A stretch of DNA of 64,000 nucleotides from Haloprofundus halophilus (lineage in GTDB: Archaea; Halobacteriota; Halobacteria; Halobacteriales; Haloferacaceae): assembly GCF_003439925.1 (NCBI RefSeq), contig NZ_QQRR01000001.1, forward strand, positions 930,001 through 994,000, given 5' to 3'. The position numbers and the translations under genes are program-made. The notes beneath the pieces are model-generated. The model worked only from the letters and a program-made list of their open reading frames with translations. It did not search any database and was not told where the DNA came from. Shown here one piece after another: positions 34,487-44,643 of this stretch; position 1 is the first letter of the stretch; every line of letters begins with the position of its first letter.

Positions 34487-35349
34487 CGAGCAGCGTCCTC
34501 GACGCGGCGCTCTGTCTGCTCCTCGTCAGCGCCGCGGCGGTGACGCTCGTGGACGTGCCGTCGAGTCACGGGTCCTCCGACGCCGGCGCGTCACGGACGG
34601 TGAAGACGCTCTCGACGAGCACCGCCGAAGTCGAATACAGCCTCGCGACCGGCGCGCGCCGTGCGGACGACCCCGAACGATTTCCCGCGACCGACGGCCC
34701 AGCGTTCGACCGGCACGCCCACGGCACGCTCGCGCAGTTACTGGCCGAGTCGACGCTGGCGACGCCGGCGGTCGGCGGTGAGCGCCCGACGCACGCGGGT
34801 ACCGACTTCCGCCGGCGCGTTCGCGCGGCCGTCGGTCGGTCGCTGCCGCCGCGGACGCACGTCGTCGCGGAGTGGCGACCGCACCCCGGTTCGAGTATCG
34901 CCGGGACGGCGACTGTCGGCGAGAGACCCCCGCCGTCGGCCGACGTTCACGTCGCGGTGCTCTCGGTGCCGACGGGGACGGAGGTCGACGACGACGCGGC
35001 CGCCCGGCGCGCGATGGACGACGGGTTCGCCGGCGTCGCAACGGTCGTGAGCGAGCGCCTCGTCAGAACGTGGTTCCCGCCGAGACGGACTCGTCTGGCG
35101 CTCGACGACGACTACCCTACGTCGGCGCTCGTCAGGTATCGCTACCGACGGACGGCCGAACTCGCGGGGGCGACGCTGCCGCCGACGCTGAACCGCTCGA
35201 CGGTTCCGGCGGCGAACGCGCGACTCGTCTCGGCGCTGGAGCCGCGCGTCGAAGCGGACCTTCGGGAGCGGTTCGACTCGCCGGCGGCGGCCGCCGTGTC
35301 GCTCTCTGGCGGGGCGGTCCGCATCACCGTTCAGCGGTGGTCGGCGTGA
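34483..35349 (+). CDS. Anchored exported protein (DUF7284-type)
   Basis: 288 residues starting at ATG 34483, which overlaps the preceding stop. The N-terminus is itself the membrane anchor/signal (VLDAALCLLLVSAAAVTLVDVP). The rest is extracellular-looking, with STSTAEVEYS, HGTLAQLLAESTLA and VSERLVRTWFPPRRTRLAL. The upstream extension of this frame to 34342 overlaps the previous gene and is not part of the protein. The following GTG overlaps its stop. Confidence 0.84.
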   Translation: MTSSVLDAALCLLLVSAAAVTLVDVPSSHGSSDAGASRTVKTLSTSTAEVEYSLATGARRADDPERFPATDGPAFDRHAHGTLAQLLAESTLATPAVGGERPTHAGTDFRRRVRAAVGRSLPPRTHVVAEWRPHPGSSIAGTATVGERPPPSADVHVAVLSVPTGTEVDDDAAARRAMDDGFAGVATVVSERLVRTWFPPRRTRLALDDDYPTSALVRYRYRRTAELAGATLPPTLNRSTVPAANARLVSALEPRVEADLRERFDSPAAAAVSLSGGAVRITVQRWSA

Positions 35350-38300
35350 GCGACGGCGCGGGTGGCGGCCCGAACGCCGCCGACTTTCTCGACGGCGAAC
35401 GCGGGCGCGTCCCGTTCGCGCTCGTCGGCGTGTTGCTGCTCGTGACGAGTTCGACGTTCGCCGCGACGCTCGGCGGCCCCGCCGCGACGCGCGACGACGA
35501 CGTCGAGACGGCGATGGAACGGGTCGACGCGGAGTCGGTCACCGCGCTCCGCGTCGCCGCCGACGAGGCCGCCGTCGACGCGGCGGCGACCCCCGTGACG
35601 GCCCGGGCGGAGACGCCGGCCGGGAAGGTGCTCAACGAGTCGTCGCCGTTCGTCGACTCGCTGCGCGTTCGCCTCTACCTCGCGGCGCGGGAGCGTTTCG
35701 AGCGGACGAGCTACCGCCGAAACGACGTGAGAGCTGCCGTGTCGATTCCGGCGGTTCGGAACATCTCGGACCTCCGGCGGGCCAAGCGCGCGGTCACCGT
35801 CGAGCGCGTCGACGAGGGGTCGGCCATGCGCGTCACGCTCGAGAACGTGACGCGAACGGCGACGCGCGACGGCCGAGTCGTCGCCGCGCGGACCGACTCG
35901 CTGACCGTGACCGTGGCCAATCCGGTACTGCTCGCACACGACAGAACGGCAGCGTTCGAGACCCGACTCGGGCGTCCGGCGCTCGCCGGGCCGGGACTGG
36001 ACCGTCGACTGACCGCGCGGCTGTATCCGGTCGCGTGGGCGCGAGGATACGCGCAGAACCGCGGCGCGCCCATCGAGAACGTCGTCTCGAACCGTCACGT
36101 CGGGCTGTCGACGAACACCGGCGTCGTCGCCGTGCAGCGGGCGTCGTTCGGTCGGAGCGACCCGGCGGCCCGACGCGGCGTCGAGCGGGCGACGATGCGC
36201 GTCGGCGCGGCCGACCTGCTGGAGCCGGCTCCGTCCGAAGCCGGCCGCATCGCGGAGGCGGTGCTCGCTCCGCCAAACGACCCGACTGCGCCGGAGGCAA
36301 ACGCTCCAGTGCCGACGGCGGCGTCCGGAGAGGAACGGTCGCTCACCGTCGGCGTCAACCGGACCGCCGACGCCGCGTTCGTCTCGTTTCTCGACGGCGA
36401 ACCGACGGCGGACGGCGAACCGACGGCGGACGGCGAACCGACGGTCGACGGCGAACCGAACCAGCGGTCGTTGACCGAGACGCTGGCGGCCGCGTACCGC
36501 GTCGACGCACACCGCTCGACGCGGGTCGTACAGACGCGCGAGGGGACGCCGAAACGCCCCGCCGCGCCCGGTCGAAACTGGAGTCGGGTGGGTGTCGAGA
36601 CGCGGACTCGTCTCTCGGTGTCCGACGGCGACGGTCCGGTGCCCGAGACGACCGGTACGCGCACCGAGACGGCGACTCGACGTGTCGTCGAGCGTCACGT
36701 TCGCACCGCAACGTGGCGACGGGGCAACGGGACTCGGACGACGCGGGCGACGTGGACCGACCGCTACCGCGTCGGCATCGCGCTCGGCGTCGAACGCCGG
36801 TCGCTCGACGGCGTTCCCACCCGGCCGGTTACCCCCGAGTTCGAACGCGGCGGCGCGCTCGACGGGCCGAACCTCGACGACGTGCCCGAGCGCGCGTGGT
36901 CGAAAACGGTCGAACGCCGCGGCGGCGTCGACGCCGTGTCTCGCCGCGCTGTCGAGAACGCTCGGTCGAGCGGAGCGACGGAGACGAGAACAGCGACGCT
37001 CACCGGTCAGCGTCCCGAGCGACTCGAGCCGTGGGTGTACGACGACCTGTCGGCGTTCAGAGAGCGCCTTCGAGGCGTGAGCCTGGAACTCGACGCGACG
37101 CGCGTCGCAACCGGCGAGGCGAACCCACCCGCGGAACTGGCCGCCGAACTCCGGTCCCGTCGGTCGGAACTGCTCGACGCTCCCGAGACGTACGACGGCG
37201 CGGCCGACCGAGCGCGCGTCGCCGCGCGGGCGGCGTATCTCGAACGCGTGTTACTCAACCTCGACGCGCGGGCCGACCGGACCGCAGCGCGAAACGACCG
37301 ACTGGGCGAGACGCTGGCCGGTCGCGGAGCGACGGCGTCGTCGTCGTCCGAACTCGGTCGGCTCGTCGAAACCGCCGAGCGGTCGGTAGTCGCCGAACCG
37401 CGGACGTTCGGCGACGAGGCACCGGCGAGCGGCGTCGCACTCTACCCCGACGGGTCGCCGGCGTACCTCACGCTGGCTACCGTCGAACGAGCGCACGCGC
37501 CGACGATTCCGGCGAACGCGAGCTATCGGCCGTTGACCGCGCGGAACACGAATCTCGTGACGGCACCGTACGGCGACGTCGCCGACAGCGTCGTCGACGG
37601 AGCGATAGACCGGTCGAAGCGGGTGAGTCTCCGAACGGGCGGGCGAGTGCTCGTGGTGGCGAACCGGACCGCCGCCGCGACCGGAAACGCGACGCTCGAC
37701 GAGCGGCGGCGTCGGCTCGGAACCGAAGTCGCCGCCGGCGTCGACGTGACCGAGGGCGCAGCGCGGACGACTCTTAGAGAGGAGACGTCGCTCACGGCGG
37801 CGGAGCGCCGTCTCGCCGTCGACTGGGGGTTCGGCCGGTGGGACGGTCACGGGCGGCGAGCGCTCGCTGCCGTCAACGGCTCCGCGGCGACGGCCATCGC
37901 CGAGCGAGTCGGAGCGCGGCGAGGCTGGCACGACCGACGGACCGACCGTCTCGAACTCCGGCTCCGGTCGTCGATGCTCGACGCCGCCCGCAGCGACGCC
38001 GCGCAGGTACGGCGGCGACCCACGGAGCGCACGTCGGCGGCGACGCAGTGGCTCGCTCGCCGCGCGAAGAAGGCGCTCGAAGCCGAACTGCGGGACGGGA
38101 GCGAGCGAGCCAAAGACCGCCTCGAAGAGCGGGTCGGCGAGCGACTCGAAGATACGAAGTGGGCCGACGAGGCGCTCGTCGGCGTACCATCCGGACTGCC
38201 GGTCGCGCCCGTACCGGGCTACTGGTACGCGACCGTCAACGTCTGGACCGTCGAGGTTCGCGGCGAGTACGCGCAGTTCGTCGTCACCGCGCGCCGCGGC

Positions 38301-38540
38301 CCGGCCGGGTCGAGCGACCTCCGGTACGTCCGCGACGGCGGCGCGGTGACGCTCGACGTCGACGACGACGGGGACGCCGAGCGCTTGGGTCGGAGCGAGC
38401 GCATCTCGTTCGAGGCGAAGACGACCGTCGTCGTGGCCGTTCCCCCGACACCGCCGGGCGTCGGCGACGTCGACGGTGACGCCGACGAGCGCTCCGGCGG
38501 GTGGCCGGAGCCCGGCTGTACGCCGGAACGGCGGTGTTGA
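35346..38540 (+). CDS. Giant anchored surface protein of the pilus-like locus (DUF7286-type)
   Basis: 1064 residues from GTG 35346, which overlaps the previous stop (GTGA). Near the N-terminus GERGRVPFALVGVLLLV resembles the haloarchaeal prepilin start, where Arg-Gly precedes a hydrophobic stretch. A very long exported region rich in Arg, Thr and Ala follows, with a DGEPTA repeat (about 350-372), several predicted helices, and a C-terminal part containing VAPVPGYWYATVNVWTVEVRGEY. It is probably the largest external subunit; the last gene of the unit. No enzyme motif. Confidence 0.87.
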   Translation: MSDGAGGGPNAADFLDGERGRVPFALVGVLLLVTSSTFAATLGGPAATRDDDVETAMERVDAESVTALRVAADEAAVDAAATPVTARAETPAGKVLNESSPFVDSLRVRLYLAARERFERTSYRRNDVRAAVSIPAVRNISDLRRAKRAVTVERVDEGSAMRVTLENVTRTATRDGRVVAARTDSLTVTVANPVLLAHDRTAAFETRLGRPALAGPGLDRRLTARLYPVAWARGYAQNRGAPIENVVSNRHVGLSTNTGVVAVQRASFGRSDPAARRGVERATMRVGAADLLEPAPSEAGRIAEAVLAPPNDPTAPEANAPVPTAASGEERSLTVGVNRTADAAFVSFLDGEPTADGEPTADGEPTVDGEPNQRSLTETLAAAYRVDAHRSTRVVQTREGTPKRPAAPGRNWSRVGVETRTRLSVSDGDGPVPETTGTRTETATRRVVERHVRTATWRRGNGTRTTRATWTDRYRVGIALGVERRSLDGVPTRPVTPEFERGGALDGPNLDDVPERAWSKTVERRGGVDAVSRRAVENARSSGATETRTATLTGQRPERLEPWVYDDLSAFRERLRGVSLELDATRVATGEANPPAELAAELRSRRSELLDAPETYDGAADRARVAARAAYLERVLLNLDARADRTAARNDRLGETLAGRGATASSSSELGRLVETAERSVVAEPRTFGDEAPASGVALYPDGSPAYLTLATVERAHAPTIPANASYRPLTARNTNLVTAPYGDVADSVVDGAIDRSKRVSLRTGGRVLVVANRTAAATGNATLDERRRRLGTEVAAGVDVTEGAARTTLREETSLTAAERRLAVDWGFGRWDGHGRRALAAVNGSAATAIAERVGARRGWHDRRTDRLELRLRSSMLDAARSDAAQVRRRPTERTSAATQWLARRAKKALEAELRDGSERAKDRLEERVGERLEDTKWADEALVGVPSGLPVAPVPGYWYATVNVWTVEVRGEYAQFVVTARRGPAGSSDLRYVRDGGAVTLDVDDDGDAERLGRSERISFEAKTTVVVAVPPTPPGVGDVDGDADERSGGWPEPGCTPERRC
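36393..36461. repeat. 18-bp tandem repeat in the giant DUF7286-type gene
   Basis: Three full units of 18 bp (36393-36410, 36411-36428, 36429-36446) plus a partial one encode DGEPTA repeats. In frame, with near-perfect identity. Confidence 0.92.
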
Positions 38541-38606: not shown

Positions 38607-39041
38607 ATGCTCTACGACGCTGCGGAGAACCCCGGGTCGTTGACGCCGGACGAGTTGCGTGCCGCCTACGACTCGCAGTTGGCTGCCGTCGTCGACGCGG
38701 TCGGCGTCGAAGCCGTCGCCGCCGAGTCGGGCGTCGACCACGACCGAGTGGCCGCCCTGACGGACGGCGACTCGCCCGACCTCACGCTCGAAGAGGCCGC
38801 CGGTATCCTCGCCGCGGGCGACGGTTACCCCGACCGGGAGGCTATCGTGCTCGAACTGCGAGACCACCTCCTGATGGGGATGACCACGGGCGTCCTCGAC
38901 GTGGACACTATCGCTTCGGACATCGACGCCGACCTCACCGGCCAGGAGGTCCAGCAGGCGCTCGAAGGTCGCATCCCGTTCTCGCTCGACGAACTCTCGG
39001 CCGTGCACCAGTTCATCGCCGAGCGGAACGACCGCCGATGA
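38607..39041 (+). CDS. DUF5791-type protein
   Basis: 144-residue soluble acidic protein: LTPDELRAAYDSQLAAVVDAVGVEAVAAESGV, then DREAIVLELRDHLLMGMTTGVLDVDTIA and a C-terminal helical part. The central region resembles a helix-turn-helix (VDHDRVAALTDGDSPDLTLEEAAGIL). I recall the haloarchaeal family as DUF5791. Its TGA overlaps the ATG of the epimerase-like gene, so the two are coupled. Confidence 0.85.
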   Translation: MLYDAAENPGSLTPDELRAAYDSQLAAVVDAVGVEAVAAESGVDHDRVAALTDGDSPDLTLEEAAGILAAGDGYPDREAIVLELRDHLLMGMTTGVLDVDTIASDIDADLTGQEVQQALEGRIPFSLDELSAVHQFIAERNDRR

Positions 39042-39964
39042 GCGCCGAGAGCAGCGACGGAGCGAGCAAGCGCGTCGTCGTCCTCGGCTGTGGCTACGTC
39101 GGCCTCGAACTCGGTCGTCAGTTGACCGCGACGGGCCACGACGTCGTCGGCGTCAGGCGTTCCGACGCCGGGCTGGAAGCCATCGAATCGGCGGGGTTCG
39201 AGGCGGTGCGTGCGGACGTGACCGACGCGTCGTCGCTCGCCTCGGTGCCGGACGCCGACTGGCTCGTCTTCGCGGCGAGTTCCGGCGGGCGCGACGCGGA
39301 GGCGGCGCAGCGAGTGTTCGTCGACGGACAGCGGACGGCGCTCTCGGCGTTCTTCGGGCGCGACGACCCGCCCGAACGCTACGTGTACACGTCGAGCACC
39401 GGCGTCTACGGCGACCACGACGGCGACTGGGTCGACGAGGGGACCGAGATTCGGCCGACGACGGAGAAGACGCGAGTGCTCGCGGAAGCCGAACGAGTCG
39501 CCCGCGCGACGCCGCGCGAGTACGGGGTCGAGGGCACCGTCGCCCGCTTCGCGGGGCTGTACGGTCCCGACCGCTACCGACTCGAGCGGTATCTGGAGGG
39601 ACCGGTGACGGAAGGGTATCTGAACATGGTCCACCGCGACGACGCCGCCGGGGCCATCGCGTACCTGCTGGAGACCGGCCAGGGACGCGACGAGGTGGTG
39701 TTGGTCGTCGACGACGAACCGGCCGAGAAGTGGGCGTTCGCCGACTGGCTGGCCGACGAGTGCGGCGTCGACTGGCCGCCGAAACGGACGAAACAGGAGC
39801 GTCTCGACGCGGGCGACCTCTCCGAGGCGGCGCGGCGACGGATTCTCACGAGCAAGCGCTGTTCGAACGCGCGACTCCGCGAACTCGGGTACGAACTCGA
39901 GTTCCCCGACTACCGTTCGGGGTACGCGGCCGCGGTCGAACGGTATCGCGAGCGCACGCGCTGA
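39038..39964 (+). CDS. Extended SDR / NAD-dependent epimerase-like protein
   Basis: 308 residues. The nucleotide loop is VVLGCGYVGLELGRQL. YVYTSSTGVYGDHDG carries the SDR Ser and Tyr, but the Tyr-x3-Lys is displaced (typical of atypical YeeZ-like SDRs). FAGLYGPDRYRLER and NMVHRDDAAGAIAYLLE are family features. Likely a sugar-nucleotide or unknown-substrate reductase. ATG overlaps the DUF5791-type stop (ATGA). Confidence 0.9.
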   Translation: MSAESSDGASKRVVVLGCGYVGLELGRQLTATGHDVVGVRRSDAGLEAIESAGFEAVRADVTDASSLASVPDADWLVFAASSGGRDAEAAQRVFVDGQRTALSAFFGRDDPPERYVYTSSTGVYGDHDGDWVDEGTEIRPTTEKTRVLAEAERVARATPREYGVEGTVARFAGLYGPDRYRLERYLEGPVTEGYLNMVHRDDAAGAIAYLLETGQGRDEVVLVVDDEPAEKWAFADWLADECGVDWPPKRTKQERLDAGDLSEAARRRILTSKRCSNARLRELGYELEFPDYRSGYAAAVERYRERTR

Positions 39965-40051
39965 ACTCCGCGAATCCGCCTTCCCGTCTACCGAAACTCG
40001 CACGAATATATTTGGGGAACCTTCTTACTGGTCGCGTTTGACAGACGGAGT

Positions 40052-41224
40052 ATGCCGAGTAGGGCCGCCGCGACGGACGCGCTCACCGACGCGGAGGTGT
40101 TCGTCCGCGACAACCCCGAGATCGCGACGGTTCTGGCTGTCGGTCTCGTCGCGCTGTTCGGCGTCAGCTACGCGCTCCGCTGGTTCCGCCGCCCGATGGG
40201 CGTTCAGTTCAAGCGGGCGCTCGCGGATTTGGACGAAATCGCGGTGTTGATGCACCCGAACCCGGACCCCGACGCCATGGCGGCGGCCATCGGCGTCGCT
40301 TGCCTCGCCGGTCAGGTCGACACGCAGGCGCGCATCCAGTTCACCGGACAGATACGCCACCAGGAGAACCGCGCCTTCCGAACGGTTCTGGATTTGGACC
40401 TCGAACAGATAGACCACGTCTCCGAGATCGCCGCCGAGAACGTCGTCCTCGTCGACCACAACACCCCGCGCGGGTTCGCGGGGGCCGAGAGCGTGCTCCC
40501 GTTCGCCGTCGTCGACCACCACCCCGGCGACGGCGCGGGCGAGGAGTTCACCGACGTGCGGACGAACTACGGCGCGAGCGCCAGCATCGTCGCCGAGTAC
40601 TTCCGCGACATCGGCGCGAAACCCGTCCCGCCGGACCAACACGCCAGCGAGATAAACGCCCGCTACACCATGCCCTCGGAGGTCGCAACCGGCCTGCTGT
40701 ACGGCATTCTGGCGGACACGAAGCGACTGACTTCGGGCTGCGTCGCCGCCGACTTCACCGCCAGCGGCTACCTCTACCCCGGCGTCGACGAGGACCTCCT
40801 GGACCGCATCGCCAACCCGCAGGTCGGCGCGGAGGTGCTCGAAGTGAAGGCCCGCGCCATCGCGGGTCGGAAGGTGAAGGGCTCGTTCGCCGTCAGCGAC
40901 GTGGGTCCCGTCTCGAACGTCGACTCCATCCCGCAGGCGGCGGACGAGCTAATGCACCTCGAAGGCGTGACGGCCGTCGTCGTCTGCGGCGAGCGCGACG
41001 GCACGGTGTACCTCTCGGGTCGCTCCCGCGACGACCGGGTCCACATGGGCCGGGCGCTCGAAGCCGCCGTCTCCGACATCCCGAGCGCGTCGGCGGGCGG
41101 ACACGCCCGCATGGGCGGCGGCCAGATTCCGCAGGTCGACCCGGCCGGCGGCGACGTGCCGAGCCCCGTACCCAGAAACGGGCTGGTCGAGCGCCTGTTC
41201 CAGACGCTCACCGGCGACGTGTGA
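40052..41224 (+). CDS. Membrane-anchored DHH/DHHA1 phosphoesterase
   Basis: 390 residues. One TM helix near the N-terminus (IATVLAVGLVALFGVSYALRW, about 24-44) tethers a DHH domain with HPNPDPDAMAAA, VVLVDHN and VVDHHPGDG. A DHHA1 domain follows, with GGHARMGGGQIP as the glycine-rich substrate loop. The family includes RecJ-like nucleases and cyclic-di-AMP or oligonucleotide (nanoRNA) phosphodiesterases. The membrane anchor and lack of RecJ extras suggest the latter. An upstream ATATAT-type TATA element is present near 40008. Confidence 0.9.
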   Translation: MPSRAAATDALTDAEVFVRDNPEIATVLAVGLVALFGVSYALRWFRRPMGVQFKRALADLDEIAVLMHPNPDPDAMAAAIGVACLAGQVDTQARIQFTGQIRHQENRAFRTVLDLDLEQIDHVSEIAAENVVLVDHNTPRGFAGAESVLPFAVVDHHPGDGAGEEFTDVRTNYGASASIVAEYFRDIGAKPVPPDQHASEINARYTMPSEVATGLLYGILADTKRLTSGCVAADFTASGYLYPGVDEDLLDRIANPQVGAEVLEVKARAIAGRKVKGSFAVSDVGPVSNVDSIPQAADELMHLEGVTAVVVCGERDGTVYLSGRSRDDRVHMGRALEAAVSDIPSASAGGHARMGGGQIPQVDPAGGDVPSPVPRNGLVERLFQTLTGDV

Positions 41225-41251
41225 GCGCTGGCACGCCACCGACGCCGCCGG

Positions 41252-41304
41252 CGACGTGCTCGCCGCGCCACCGACGACGTGCTCGCCGCGCCACCGGCGA
41301 CGTG
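41252..41304. repeat. 23-bp tandem repeat downstream of the DHH gene
   Basis: Two full 23-bp units (41252-41274, 41275-41297; CGACGTGCTCGCCGCGCCAC core) and a partial third. The unit boundary CACCGGCGACGTGT repeats the last codons of the DHH gene, so the array seems to derive from the gene's own 3' end. Confidence 0.85.
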
Positions 41305-41338: not shown

Positions 41339-42451
41339 ATGGCAACCGCGAGCGGCACGTGGGGGTATCGGGACCGCTTCGGCGACAGCTTCGGTCGCAC
41401 CTATTTCCGCCGGTTCGGCCCCGGCGTGGTGTCGAGCATCGGCGTCGGGACGTACCTCGGTGACCCGACCGACGCCGTCGACGACGGCTACCGAGAGGCG
41501 CTCGTCGAGGCGTTCGAGAGCGGCGTCAACCTCGTCGACACCGCGATAAACTACCGCTGTCAGCGGAGCGAGCACGTGGTGGGCCGCGCGCTCGACGAGG
41601 CCGACATCGACAGAGACGAGGTGGTCGTCGCCACGAAAGGCGGCTTCCTCCCGTTCGACGGCGAGCGGCCGAGCGACCCGAGCGCGTACGTCCGCGAGCG
41701 GTTCGTCGAGACGGGCCTCGTCGACATCGACGAACTCGCGCGCGGCAGCCACTGCATCGCCCCCGACTTCCTGGACGCGATGCTCGACCGGTCGCTCTCG
41801 AATCTCGGCCTCGACAGCGTCGACTGCTACTACGTCCACAACCCGGAGACGCAGTTGAGCGTCCGCGACGCCGACGCGGTTTACGACCGACTCGAAGCCG
41901 CGTTCGCGAGACTCGAAGAGCGCCGGACGGCGGGCGACATCGGCGGCTACGGCGTCGCGACGTGGGAGGCGTTCCGCGTGCCGCCGGAGCATCCGAACCA
42001 CCTGTCGCTCCCGGAGGTGGTGTCGCGGGCCGACCGCGCCGCCGACGCCGCCGGCAACGACCAGTCGGGACTGCTCGCGCTCCAGATGCCGTTCAACGTG
42101 GAGATGGCCGACGCGTTCACCGCGAAAGTTCACGAACGCAGCGACGACGGTGACGGTGGCGACGGCGGCGAACGGGTGAGCGCGCTGGAGTTCGCCCACG
42201 ACGCCGGACTCTCGGTGTTCGCGAGCGCGAGTCTCAAACAGGGCGAACTCGTCGCCGGACTCCCGGACGCCGTCGCCGCCGAGTTGGAGGGCGACTCGAC
42301 GACGCAACGGGCGCTCAACTTCGCGCGGAGCGCGCCCGCGGTGACGGCGGCGCTCGTCGGGACGAGTCGTCGAGAGCACGTCGCCGAGAACGTCGCCGCC
42401 GGGACGTTCGACCCGCTGGGCGCGAAGGCGTTCGACGCCGTCTTCGACTGA
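41339..42451 (+). CDS. Aldo/keto reductase
   Basis: 370-residue (beta/alpha)8 oxidoreductase. GVGTYLGDPT, NLVDTAINYRCQRSEHVVGRAL (catalytic Asp and Tyr), VVATKGGFLPF, LGLDSVDCYYVHNPE and the C-terminal ASASLKQGEL / ALVGTSRREHVAENV NADPH-site motifs are visible. An Asp/Gly-rich loop (SDDGDGGDGGER) is inserted late, as halophilic surface decoration. The start ATG 41339 is chosen; codons upstream overlap the tandem repeat. Substrate unknown. Confidence 0.9.
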   Translation: MATASGTWGYRDRFGDSFGRTYFRRFGPGVVSSIGVGTYLGDPTDAVDDGYREALVEAFESGVNLVDTAINYRCQRSEHVVGRALDEADIDRDEVVVATKGGFLPFDGERPSDPSAYVRERFVETGLVDIDELARGSHCIAPDFLDAMLDRSLSNLGLDSVDCYYVHNPETQLSVRDADAVYDRLEAAFARLEERRTAGDIGGYGVATWEAFRVPPEHPNHLSLPEVVSRADRAADAAGNDQSGLLALQMPFNVEMADAFTAKVHERSDDGDGGDGGERVSALEFAHDAGLSVFASASLKQGELVAGLPDAVAAELEGDSTTQRALNFARSAPAVTAALVGTSRREHVAENVAAGTFDPLGAKAFDAVFD

Positions 42452-42457
42452 CGGGTG

Positions 42458-42625
42458 CTACAGTTCCTTCCACTCGCGGCCGCAGTCGGGACAGGTCCGG
42501 ACCGAGAACACCTCGTCGGGGTCGTTGCGCTTCTTCAACGTCTCCTCGCACTCCTCGCACGCGAGACGCCCGTACGTGTCTTTGCCGAGTTCTCCCGCGC
42601 GCAGACCCTTCCGGGTGGAATCCAT
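42458..42625 (-). CDS. HVO_0758-family zinc-finger microprotein
   Basis: 55-residue protein MDSTRKGLRAGELGKDTYGR followed by a zinc ribbon: CEEC ... CPDCGREWKEL. It matches in length and motif layout the HVO_0758 family of haloarchaeal zinc microproteins. ATG 42625 is used; the frame continues upstream but without family similarity. Convergent with the aldo/keto reductase (6-nt gap). The molecular partner is unknown. Confidence 0.9.
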   Translation of the reverse strand: MDSTRKGLRAGELGKDTYGRLACEECEETLKKRNDPDEVFSVRTCPDCGREWKEL

Positions 42626-43939: not shown

Positions 43940-44643
43940 GCCGAACTTACGACGACCTCGCGGGCGTCGTCGACCTCTTCGGCGCGCTGACGCACGCCGA
44001 ACTCGAATCCGCGCTCGACGAACTCGCGTACAAACAGGGCTCGGAGACCGACGCGGAGGCGCTCTCGGCGGCCGTCGACGCGGCCATCGACGAGTACTAT
44101 CTCGTCGAGTACATTGCCGACGCGGACGACCGGACGGTCGGGACGGACGACCAGACGGTCGGGACGAACGACCAGACGGTCGGGACGGACGACCAGACGG
44201 TCGGGACGAACGACCAGACGGTCGGGACGGACGACCAGACGGTCGGGACGAACGACCAGACGGTCGGGACGGACGACCAGACGGTCGGGACGAACGACCA
44301 GACGGTCGGGACGAACGACCAGACGGTCGAGGCGGGCGACCCCGAACGGCGCGGCGCCGCCGACGGGACGTTCGTCGCGGTCGGTCCCGCGGCGTTTCCG
44401 TCGCTGCCGCAGAACGCCGAAGACCTCCCGCACATCCTCGACGTGCCGCGGCGCGAGGTCGACCGCCGGGCGCTCGGCGAACAGGTCCGCGAGCGCCTCG
44501 CGGCCGAAGCCGACGCCGCTATCGACGACGGCGACGAAGCGCGTCTGAACCGGCTGTACGACGTGACGTACGACCTCGACGCGTGGGCACCCGTCGAGAC
44601 GGCCGCCGTCCGCGACCGACTCGATGCGGTTCTTCAAGACTAA
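43936..44643 (+). CDS. DUF7109-type protein with heptapeptide tandem repeat
   Basis: 235 residues. Conserved-looking flanks (TYDDLAGVVDLFGALTHAELESALDELAYKQG and FVAVGPAAFPSLPQNAEDLPHILDVPRREVDRR, then LYDVTYDLDAW) surround an array of nine to ten DQTVGT-D/N heptapeptides (about residues 65-131). The flanks match a haloarchaeal family I recall as DUF7109; the array is an insertion within it. ATG overlaps the GpgS-like stop, so the two proteins are co-translated. Function unknown. Confidence 0.85.
   Translation: MSRTYDDLAGVVDLFGALTHAELESALDELAYKQGSETDAEALSAAVDAAIDEYYLVEYIADADDRTVGTDDQTVGTNDQTVGTDDQTVGTNDQTVGTDDQTVGTNDQTVGTDDQTVGTNDQTVGTNDQTVEAGDPERRGAADGTFVAVGPAAFPSLPQNAEDLPHILDVPRREVDRRALGEQVRERLAAEADAAIDDGDEARLNRLYDVTYDLDAWAPVETAAVRDRLDAVLQD
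44128..44328. repeat. 21-bp tandem repeat array, nine full units plus a partial one
   Basis: Units of 21 bp encode D-Q/R-TVGT-D/N. The last residue alternates D, N, D, N ..., pointing to amplification of a 42-bp dimer, with the final full copies both N. Units are nearly identical, suggesting recent expansion. Confidence 0.97.

Follow-up and report, generated by a model that had tools for sequence, protein, structure and literature searches.

A membrane-anchored DHH-DHHA1 protein of Haloprofundus halophilus as a candidate auxiliary c-di-AMP phosphodiesterase

The locus and its conservation

Here, we explored a gene of the haloarchaeon Haloprofundus halophilus within a window of 64,000 nucleotides (contig NZ_QQRR01000001.1, positions 930,001 to 994,000), which is the whole stretch of DNA that was analysed and to which coordinates refer unless stated otherwise. 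The gene, its parts and its conserved neighbours are listed below; residues in brackets after a motif are those retained in 103 of 103 aligned orthologs.

39038..39964, forward strand: epimerase-like NAD-binding protein, upstream neighbour (Pfam Epimerase; upstream in 74 of 80 named loci)
40006..40014, forward strand: TATA-box-like stretch AATATATTT, about 40 bp 5' of the target ATG, read by eye
40052..41224, forward strand: target TM-DHH-DHHA1 gene, open reading frame with ATG start, 390 aa (Pfam domains; full-length or near-full-length ortholog matches)
40115..40186, forward strand: N-terminal TM helix, residues 22-45 (hydropathy, charge, helix in the AlphaFold model)
40238..40708, forward strand: DHH domain, residues 63-219 (Pfam PF01368)
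40253..40273, forward strand: motif I HPNPDPD, residues 68-74 (H68, N70, D72, D74)
40448..40462, forward strand: motif II LVDHN, residues 133-137 (D135)
40514..40522, forward strand: motif III DHH, residues 155-157 (D155, H156, H157)
40703..40720, forward strand: motif IV GILADT, residues 218-223 (D222, T223)
40883..41134, forward strand: DHHA1 domain, residues 278-361 (Pfam PF02272)
41096..41122, forward strand: GGHARMGGG substrate loop, residues 349-357 (G349, G350, H351, R353, M354, G355, G356)
41339..42451, forward strand: aldo/keto reductase (AKR), downstream neighbour (Pfam PF00248; downstream in 37 of 80)
42458..42625, reverse strand: HVO_0758-family zinc finger (PF23137, NF041912 over cut-off; downstream in 25 of 80)

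Both domains of the target exceed their curated Pfam cut-offs (DHH, E 2e-9, 38.2 bits against 28.1; DHHA1, E 5.8e-10, 40 bits against 25.9), no other Pfam domain is matched at E up to 1, and the motif residues H68-x-N-x-D-x-D74, D135, D155-H156-H157, D222 and G349-G350-H351 are present, which places the protein, as judged from its sequence, in the DHH/DHHA1 phosphoesterase superfamily. The single N-terminal TM helix, the DHH motifs and the GGHARMGGG loop on which the original prediction was built are thus all borne out by the reading frame, Pfam, hydropathy and the alignment. We collected 110 loci of the target type, in sets of 30 and 80 that partly repeat the same species and so are not all independent; 103 were aligned and, with no exception, keep the motif residues. 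The other 7, missed by the motif pattern and read by eye, have HPDPDPD as motif I (N70 replaced by D), with the remaining motifs intact. Among the named loci, the closest relative of the target is that of Haloprofundus marisrubri (97%).

The most hydrophobic 19-residue segment on the Kyte-Doolittle scale spans residues 24-42 (2.26), and no window above 1.6 begins past residue 60. The flank preceding this segment carries a net negative charge and the one following it is positive (RWFRRP); a segment above 1.6 with a more positive C-side flank recurs in 103/103 aligned orthologs. Given this distribution of charges, the positive-inside rule predicts an N-out, C-in topology, which would place the catalytic part on the cytoplasmic side. 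We rejected the possibility that the helix is an artefact of start-site choice, because some orthologs that lack a Met at the internal RPMG site still have it. Upstream of the gene, AATATATTT is, by eye, probably its own archaeal promoter; a promoter and terminator scan, which models sigma-70 promoters only and is unsuited to archaea, found none. A 23-bp tandem repeat of 2.7 copies lies right behind the target stop codon (41243-41304).

A DUF5791 gene also lies upstream of the target in 71 of the 80 named loci. None of the conserved neighbours in these 80 loci (DUF5791, epimerase-like protein, AKR, zinc finger) points to c-di-AMP. A full-length DUF7286 protein (34872-38540, 1166 bits) lies upstream of the cluster in 63 of the 80 loci, and a 21-bp tandem repeat of 10.4 copies within an open reading frame (44123-44341) codes for a repeated DDQTVGT-like unit. 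In three Haloferax loci the order is the same as here, namely, DUF5791, epimerase-like protein, target, AKR and HVO_0758 zinc finger. Because this order places the target beside HVO_0758, we infer from synteny in the sister species and from the gene numbering that its Haloferax volcanii counterpart is HVO_0756. A passage of PMC8305020 lists HVO_0756, HVO_0990 and HVO_1690, after He et al. 2020, as predicted c-di-AMP phosphodiesterases, and these three genes would match the three DHH paralogs found here (the target and the paralogs B and C described below). The proposal that this gene encodes a c-di-AMP phosphodiesterase is therefore not new, being in print as a prediction for the Haloferax counterpart. 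The same source states that the c-di-AMP-degrading enzyme is not yet identified, and HVO_0990 and HVO_1690 are reported to be raised under hypochlorite in a section of PMC10294847 that mentions them only as DNA recombination/repair proteins.

Nearest solved relatives

Searches against the PDB consistently rank GdpP first. With the target as a single sequence, phmmer retrieves GdpP at 1.3e-7 and 1.7e-6, followed by Mn pyrophosphatases from 2e-4 and NrnA at 0.076, whereas a profile of target orthologs yields 9.9e-13 for GdpP, 1.1e-7 for pyrophosphatase and 0.12 for NrnA (8iu7). A profile of all three paralogs reaches GdpP at 5.5e-20, and paralog B alone at 1e-18. The fold gives the same ranking: with the AlphaFold model of the target (pLDDT 92.1, pTM 0.70), the top four Foldseek hits are GdpP catalytic domains (best 1.5e-21), and VIA-align superposes the model on GdpP with bound pApA at Z 25.6 over 310 residues (rmsd 5.0, 25% identity), compared to Z 23.3 for the Thermotoga maritima phosphodiesterase, 22.7 for NrnA and 20.6 for pyrophosphatase, so that the lead in fold over the NrnA-type and T. 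maritima enzymes is only 2-3 Z units. Thus, by sequence and predicted structure, the closest solved relatives of the target are the catalytic domains of the c-di-AMP phosphodiesterase GdpP, with NrnA and the family II pyrophosphatases ranking behind them.

With GdpP (5xsi, 5xsp, 5xt3; 9n0l), the target shares the DHH-DHHA1 catalytic half, intact motifs and an N-terminal membrane anchor. GdpP is usually drawn with two TM helices, whereas the target has one and, at E up to 1 in Pfam, neither PAS nor GGDEF. The 60 residues ahead of its DHH domain are too few for the PAS and degenerate GGDEF domains that an account of GdpP architecture describes (PMC11229311). Conversely, NrnA/Pde2/CnpB (8iu7, 5jju) and T. 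maritima TM1595 (5o25) resemble the target in being DHH-DHHA1 proteins without sensor domains, with fold Z scores of 20-23, but their sequence similarity to it is much weaker than that of GdpP. These proteins are not known to have a membrane anchor, the NrnA type being soluble, and the TM helix found throughout the aligned orthologs sets the target apart from such stand-alone soluble enzymes.

Two other identities were rejected: family II (Mn) pyrophosphatase, given a score of 41.5 bits against the 283 of NF003877 and the presence of DHHA1 with no DHHA2 match listed, and archaeal RecJ (NF053576, 11.8 against 360 bits). As a warning against reading the substrate from the fold, NrnB-type DHH proteins, according to a passage of PMC12709177, do not cleave c-di-AMP.

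Paralogs and distribution

In its own genome, the DHH domain is matched in the target, in paralogs B (L001) and C (L002), both of which carry an N-terminal TrkA_N domain, and in L004, which is RecJ (NCBIfam, 666 against 360 bits). Additional DHHA1 matches, L009 and L011, resemble by eye alanyl-tRNA synthetase and a short protein related to it. Apart from these and L004, the intact DHH-DHHA1 proteins are the target and B; in C, DHY replaces DHH and E replaces D222. The genome also encodes a DacZ equivalog (491.5 against 430 bits), to which the target is not adjacent, and domain searches of the genome found neither a PgpH-type 7TMR-HDED protein nor an Orn-type RNase_T. There is, besides, a second DAC-like domain, which is partial and contains an in-frame TAG (L006, C3:64680-64919, reverse strand), and comparable partial DAC matches (model positions of about 50-118) recur in other haloarchaea.

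Across 145 haloarchaeal genomes, DAC was found in all, as were B and C (E up to 1e-80), whereas the target was found in 123 and is absent from 22, absence being defined as a best E above 1e-60, with one split and one shortened match counted as present. All 22 genomes without the target retain some DAC match; the one weak match (G128, 3.6e-6) is a single case and carries no weight. Because these absences fall in seven families, the target has been lost, or was not acquired in the first place, on more than one occasion. This distribution rejects the target as the sole c-di-AMP hydrolase and runs against the implication of the original prediction that it is what removes c-di-AMP in haloarchaea. 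In the target-less genomes, B, fetched for 20 of the 22, keeps its metal ligands and DHH in 20/20, with N70 differing in two. Because B is universal, and intact where the target is missing, it is, as far as sequence can tell, the best candidate for the core c-di-AMP phosphodiesterase in haloarchaea, the target probably being auxiliary.

Paralog C is equally widespread.

L002:952-2403, equivalent to C1:42298-43749 of the own genome, reverse strand: paralog C, TrkA_N-DHH-DHHA1, with an eroded active site

We read 30 C proteins (13 from the first alignment, 2 by eye and 15 from chosen families; motif patterns missed 2 C loci and 6 of the second set, which were read separately). The motif-IV D is replaced by E or A in 30/30, and 28/30 have lost one or more of H68, D72, H156 and H157 (the exceptions being L201 and L210). 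An E at motif IV is not by itself proof of inactivity, because proteins of family f14 that have DHH also carry it. C is likely a pseudo-phosphodiesterase, and its combination of universality, high conservation and erosion suggests a binding role; that c-di-AMP is the ligand would be a guess. Erosion is also seen in TM-anchored DHH-like proteins of 377-379 aa (L216, L217, L218), which have lost nearly all catalytic residues, occur in three genomes without the target and are closest to C by score. Two further genomes contain a fourth DHH-DHHA1 paralog (L219, L220), with DHH intact and E at motif IV.

At the scale of the phylum, we sampled 120 Halobacteriota genomes, 19 of them from the same order as H. 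halophilus. The DHH family profile and DAC occur together in 103 genomes, DHH alone in 3, DAC alone in 5 (three of these being at most 70% complete) and neither in 9. The Fisher p values of 3.7e-8 (all 120), 3.5e-8 (genomes at least 90% complete) and 1.8e-7 (101 genomes outside the order) ignore kinship: six of the nine genomes with neither belong to one family and two to one genus, and the remaining one is 75% complete, which leaves two or three independent co-losses. The co-occurrence still ties the wider DHH family, not the target subfamily, to c-di-AMP.

Judged by frame lengths, no target-type match of about 390 aa was present in the 101 genomes outside the order. Because the family proteins sampled there sit in frames of about 430-630 aa, save fragments and two weak extra matches, the TM form seems, within this sample, to be restricted to haloarchaea. 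The motifs were intact in the 16 outside proteins that we read, some with E at motif IV. In a maximum-likelihood tree of 72 rows, rooted at the midpoint only, the target group forms one clade (100/100), B forms one group that includes the B protein of G014, and C falls with proteins of other Halobacteriota (99/94). The archaeal TrkA_N-DHH-DHHA1 proteins (B, C and those of other Halobacteriota) have a catalytic half homologous to that of the target (35-39% identical) but a Rossmann TrkA_N domain where the target has its TM helix.

Function of the target

We favour, with moderate confidence, the reading that the target is a membrane-anchored, metal-dependent, GdpP-like DHH-DHHA1 phosphodiesterase, most likely opening c-di-AMP, and auxiliary beside B. 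In the scheme that we infer, for metals, topology, substrate, product and division of labour alike, the single TM helix would tether the catalytic domain to the membrane on its cytoplasmic side. Two metal ions on H68, D72, D74, D135, H156 and D222, ligand roles that we presume from work on family II pyrophosphatase and GdpP, would activate water, and the GGH loop of DHHA1 would close over the nucleotide. The c-di-AMP made by DacZ would most likely be opened to pApA, and perhaps further to AMP, the target adding a membrane-located activity to that of the universal paralog B. The intact active site, GdpP as the nearest solved relative, DacZ in the genome, where B is the sole other intact candidate and no PgpH-type match was found, and the co-occurrence of the family with DAC argue for this reading. 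The absence of the target from 22 of 145 haloarchaea with a DAC match, the small lead in fold over NrnA-type and T. maritima enzymes, the position of the gene away from dacZ, the restriction of the co-occurrence to the wider family and the lack of PAS and GGDEF count against it. The original prediction of a c-di-AMP hydrolase is thus plausible, but too strong on uniqueness, given that B is present in 145/145 genomes.

Alternatively, the target could be an NrnA- or Pde2-like hydrolase of pApA and short RNA, such that B opens c-di-AMP, leaving the target to break down pApA and nanoRNA into mononucleotides close to the membrane. We regard this as possible but rather unlikely. The target is a stand-alone DHH-DHHA1 protein without sensor domains, NrnA-type enzymes, which prefer short RNA, are close to it in fold, and another nanoRNase is needed because the genome has no Orn-type RNase_T match, although RecJ-type nucleases, L004 among them, could equally dispose of short RNA. 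According to a passage of PMC8646023, the phosphodiesterases are unknown and, in H. volcanii, pApA stays below the level of c-di-AMP, which means that pApA is removed in this species. An excerpt of PMC11229311 describes an NrnA-type enzyme of Deinococcus radiodurans that cuts RNA of 2-3 nt, and c-di-AMP too. Against this alternative stand the ortholog profile, which puts GdpP far above NrnA, and the contrast between soluble NrnA-type enzymes and the anchored target. Some other small substrate, a phosphate ester or an anhydride such as pAp, PPi, polyphosphate or another cyclic dinucleotide, seems improbable: the best NCBIfam match, a weak one, is indeed to Mn-dependent pyrophosphatase, on which the DHH half superposes with Z of about 20 over about 176 residues (rmsd about 2.6), but the score is far under the cut-off and the protein has DHHA1, with DHHA2 not among the Pfam matches listed. 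A catalytically weak protein or a membrane-bound c-di-AMP receptor, as paralog C and the eroded TM-anchored proteins might suggest, is very improbable given that all motif residues are present in every aligned target ortholog.

Beyond the GdpP-like reading of the target itself, we advance, as a doubtful conjecture, a three-protein set for disposal and sensing of c-di-AMP, comprising the target as anchored hydrolase, B as soluble TrkA_N hydrolase and C as pseudo-phosphodiesterase receptor. C would derive from the one TrkA_N-DHH-DHHA1 protein that other Halobacteriota have, through loss of catalysis, and would act as a c-di-AMP receptor, its TrkA_N domain linking the signal to the status of nucleotides or of K+. 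If this were true, the target, by degrading c-di-AMP locally at the membrane, would modulate the pool of this nucleotide in the vicinity of K+ or mechanosensitive channels.

In H. volcanii, c-di-AMP is required under standard conditions, as stated in a passage of PMC6741144, and the open-access PMC papers that we found name no experimentally proven archaeal c-di-AMP phosphodiesterase. With our analysis, the three candidates no longer stand as equals but form a ranked set: B, intact and universal; the target, intact, membrane-bound and patchily distributed; and C, universal and eroded. This ranking and the recognition of the eroded paralog are what the analysis adds, and C, if indeed a pseudo-phosphodiesterase, would be an unusual case of a member of an enzyme family retained throughout a class despite loss of its active site.
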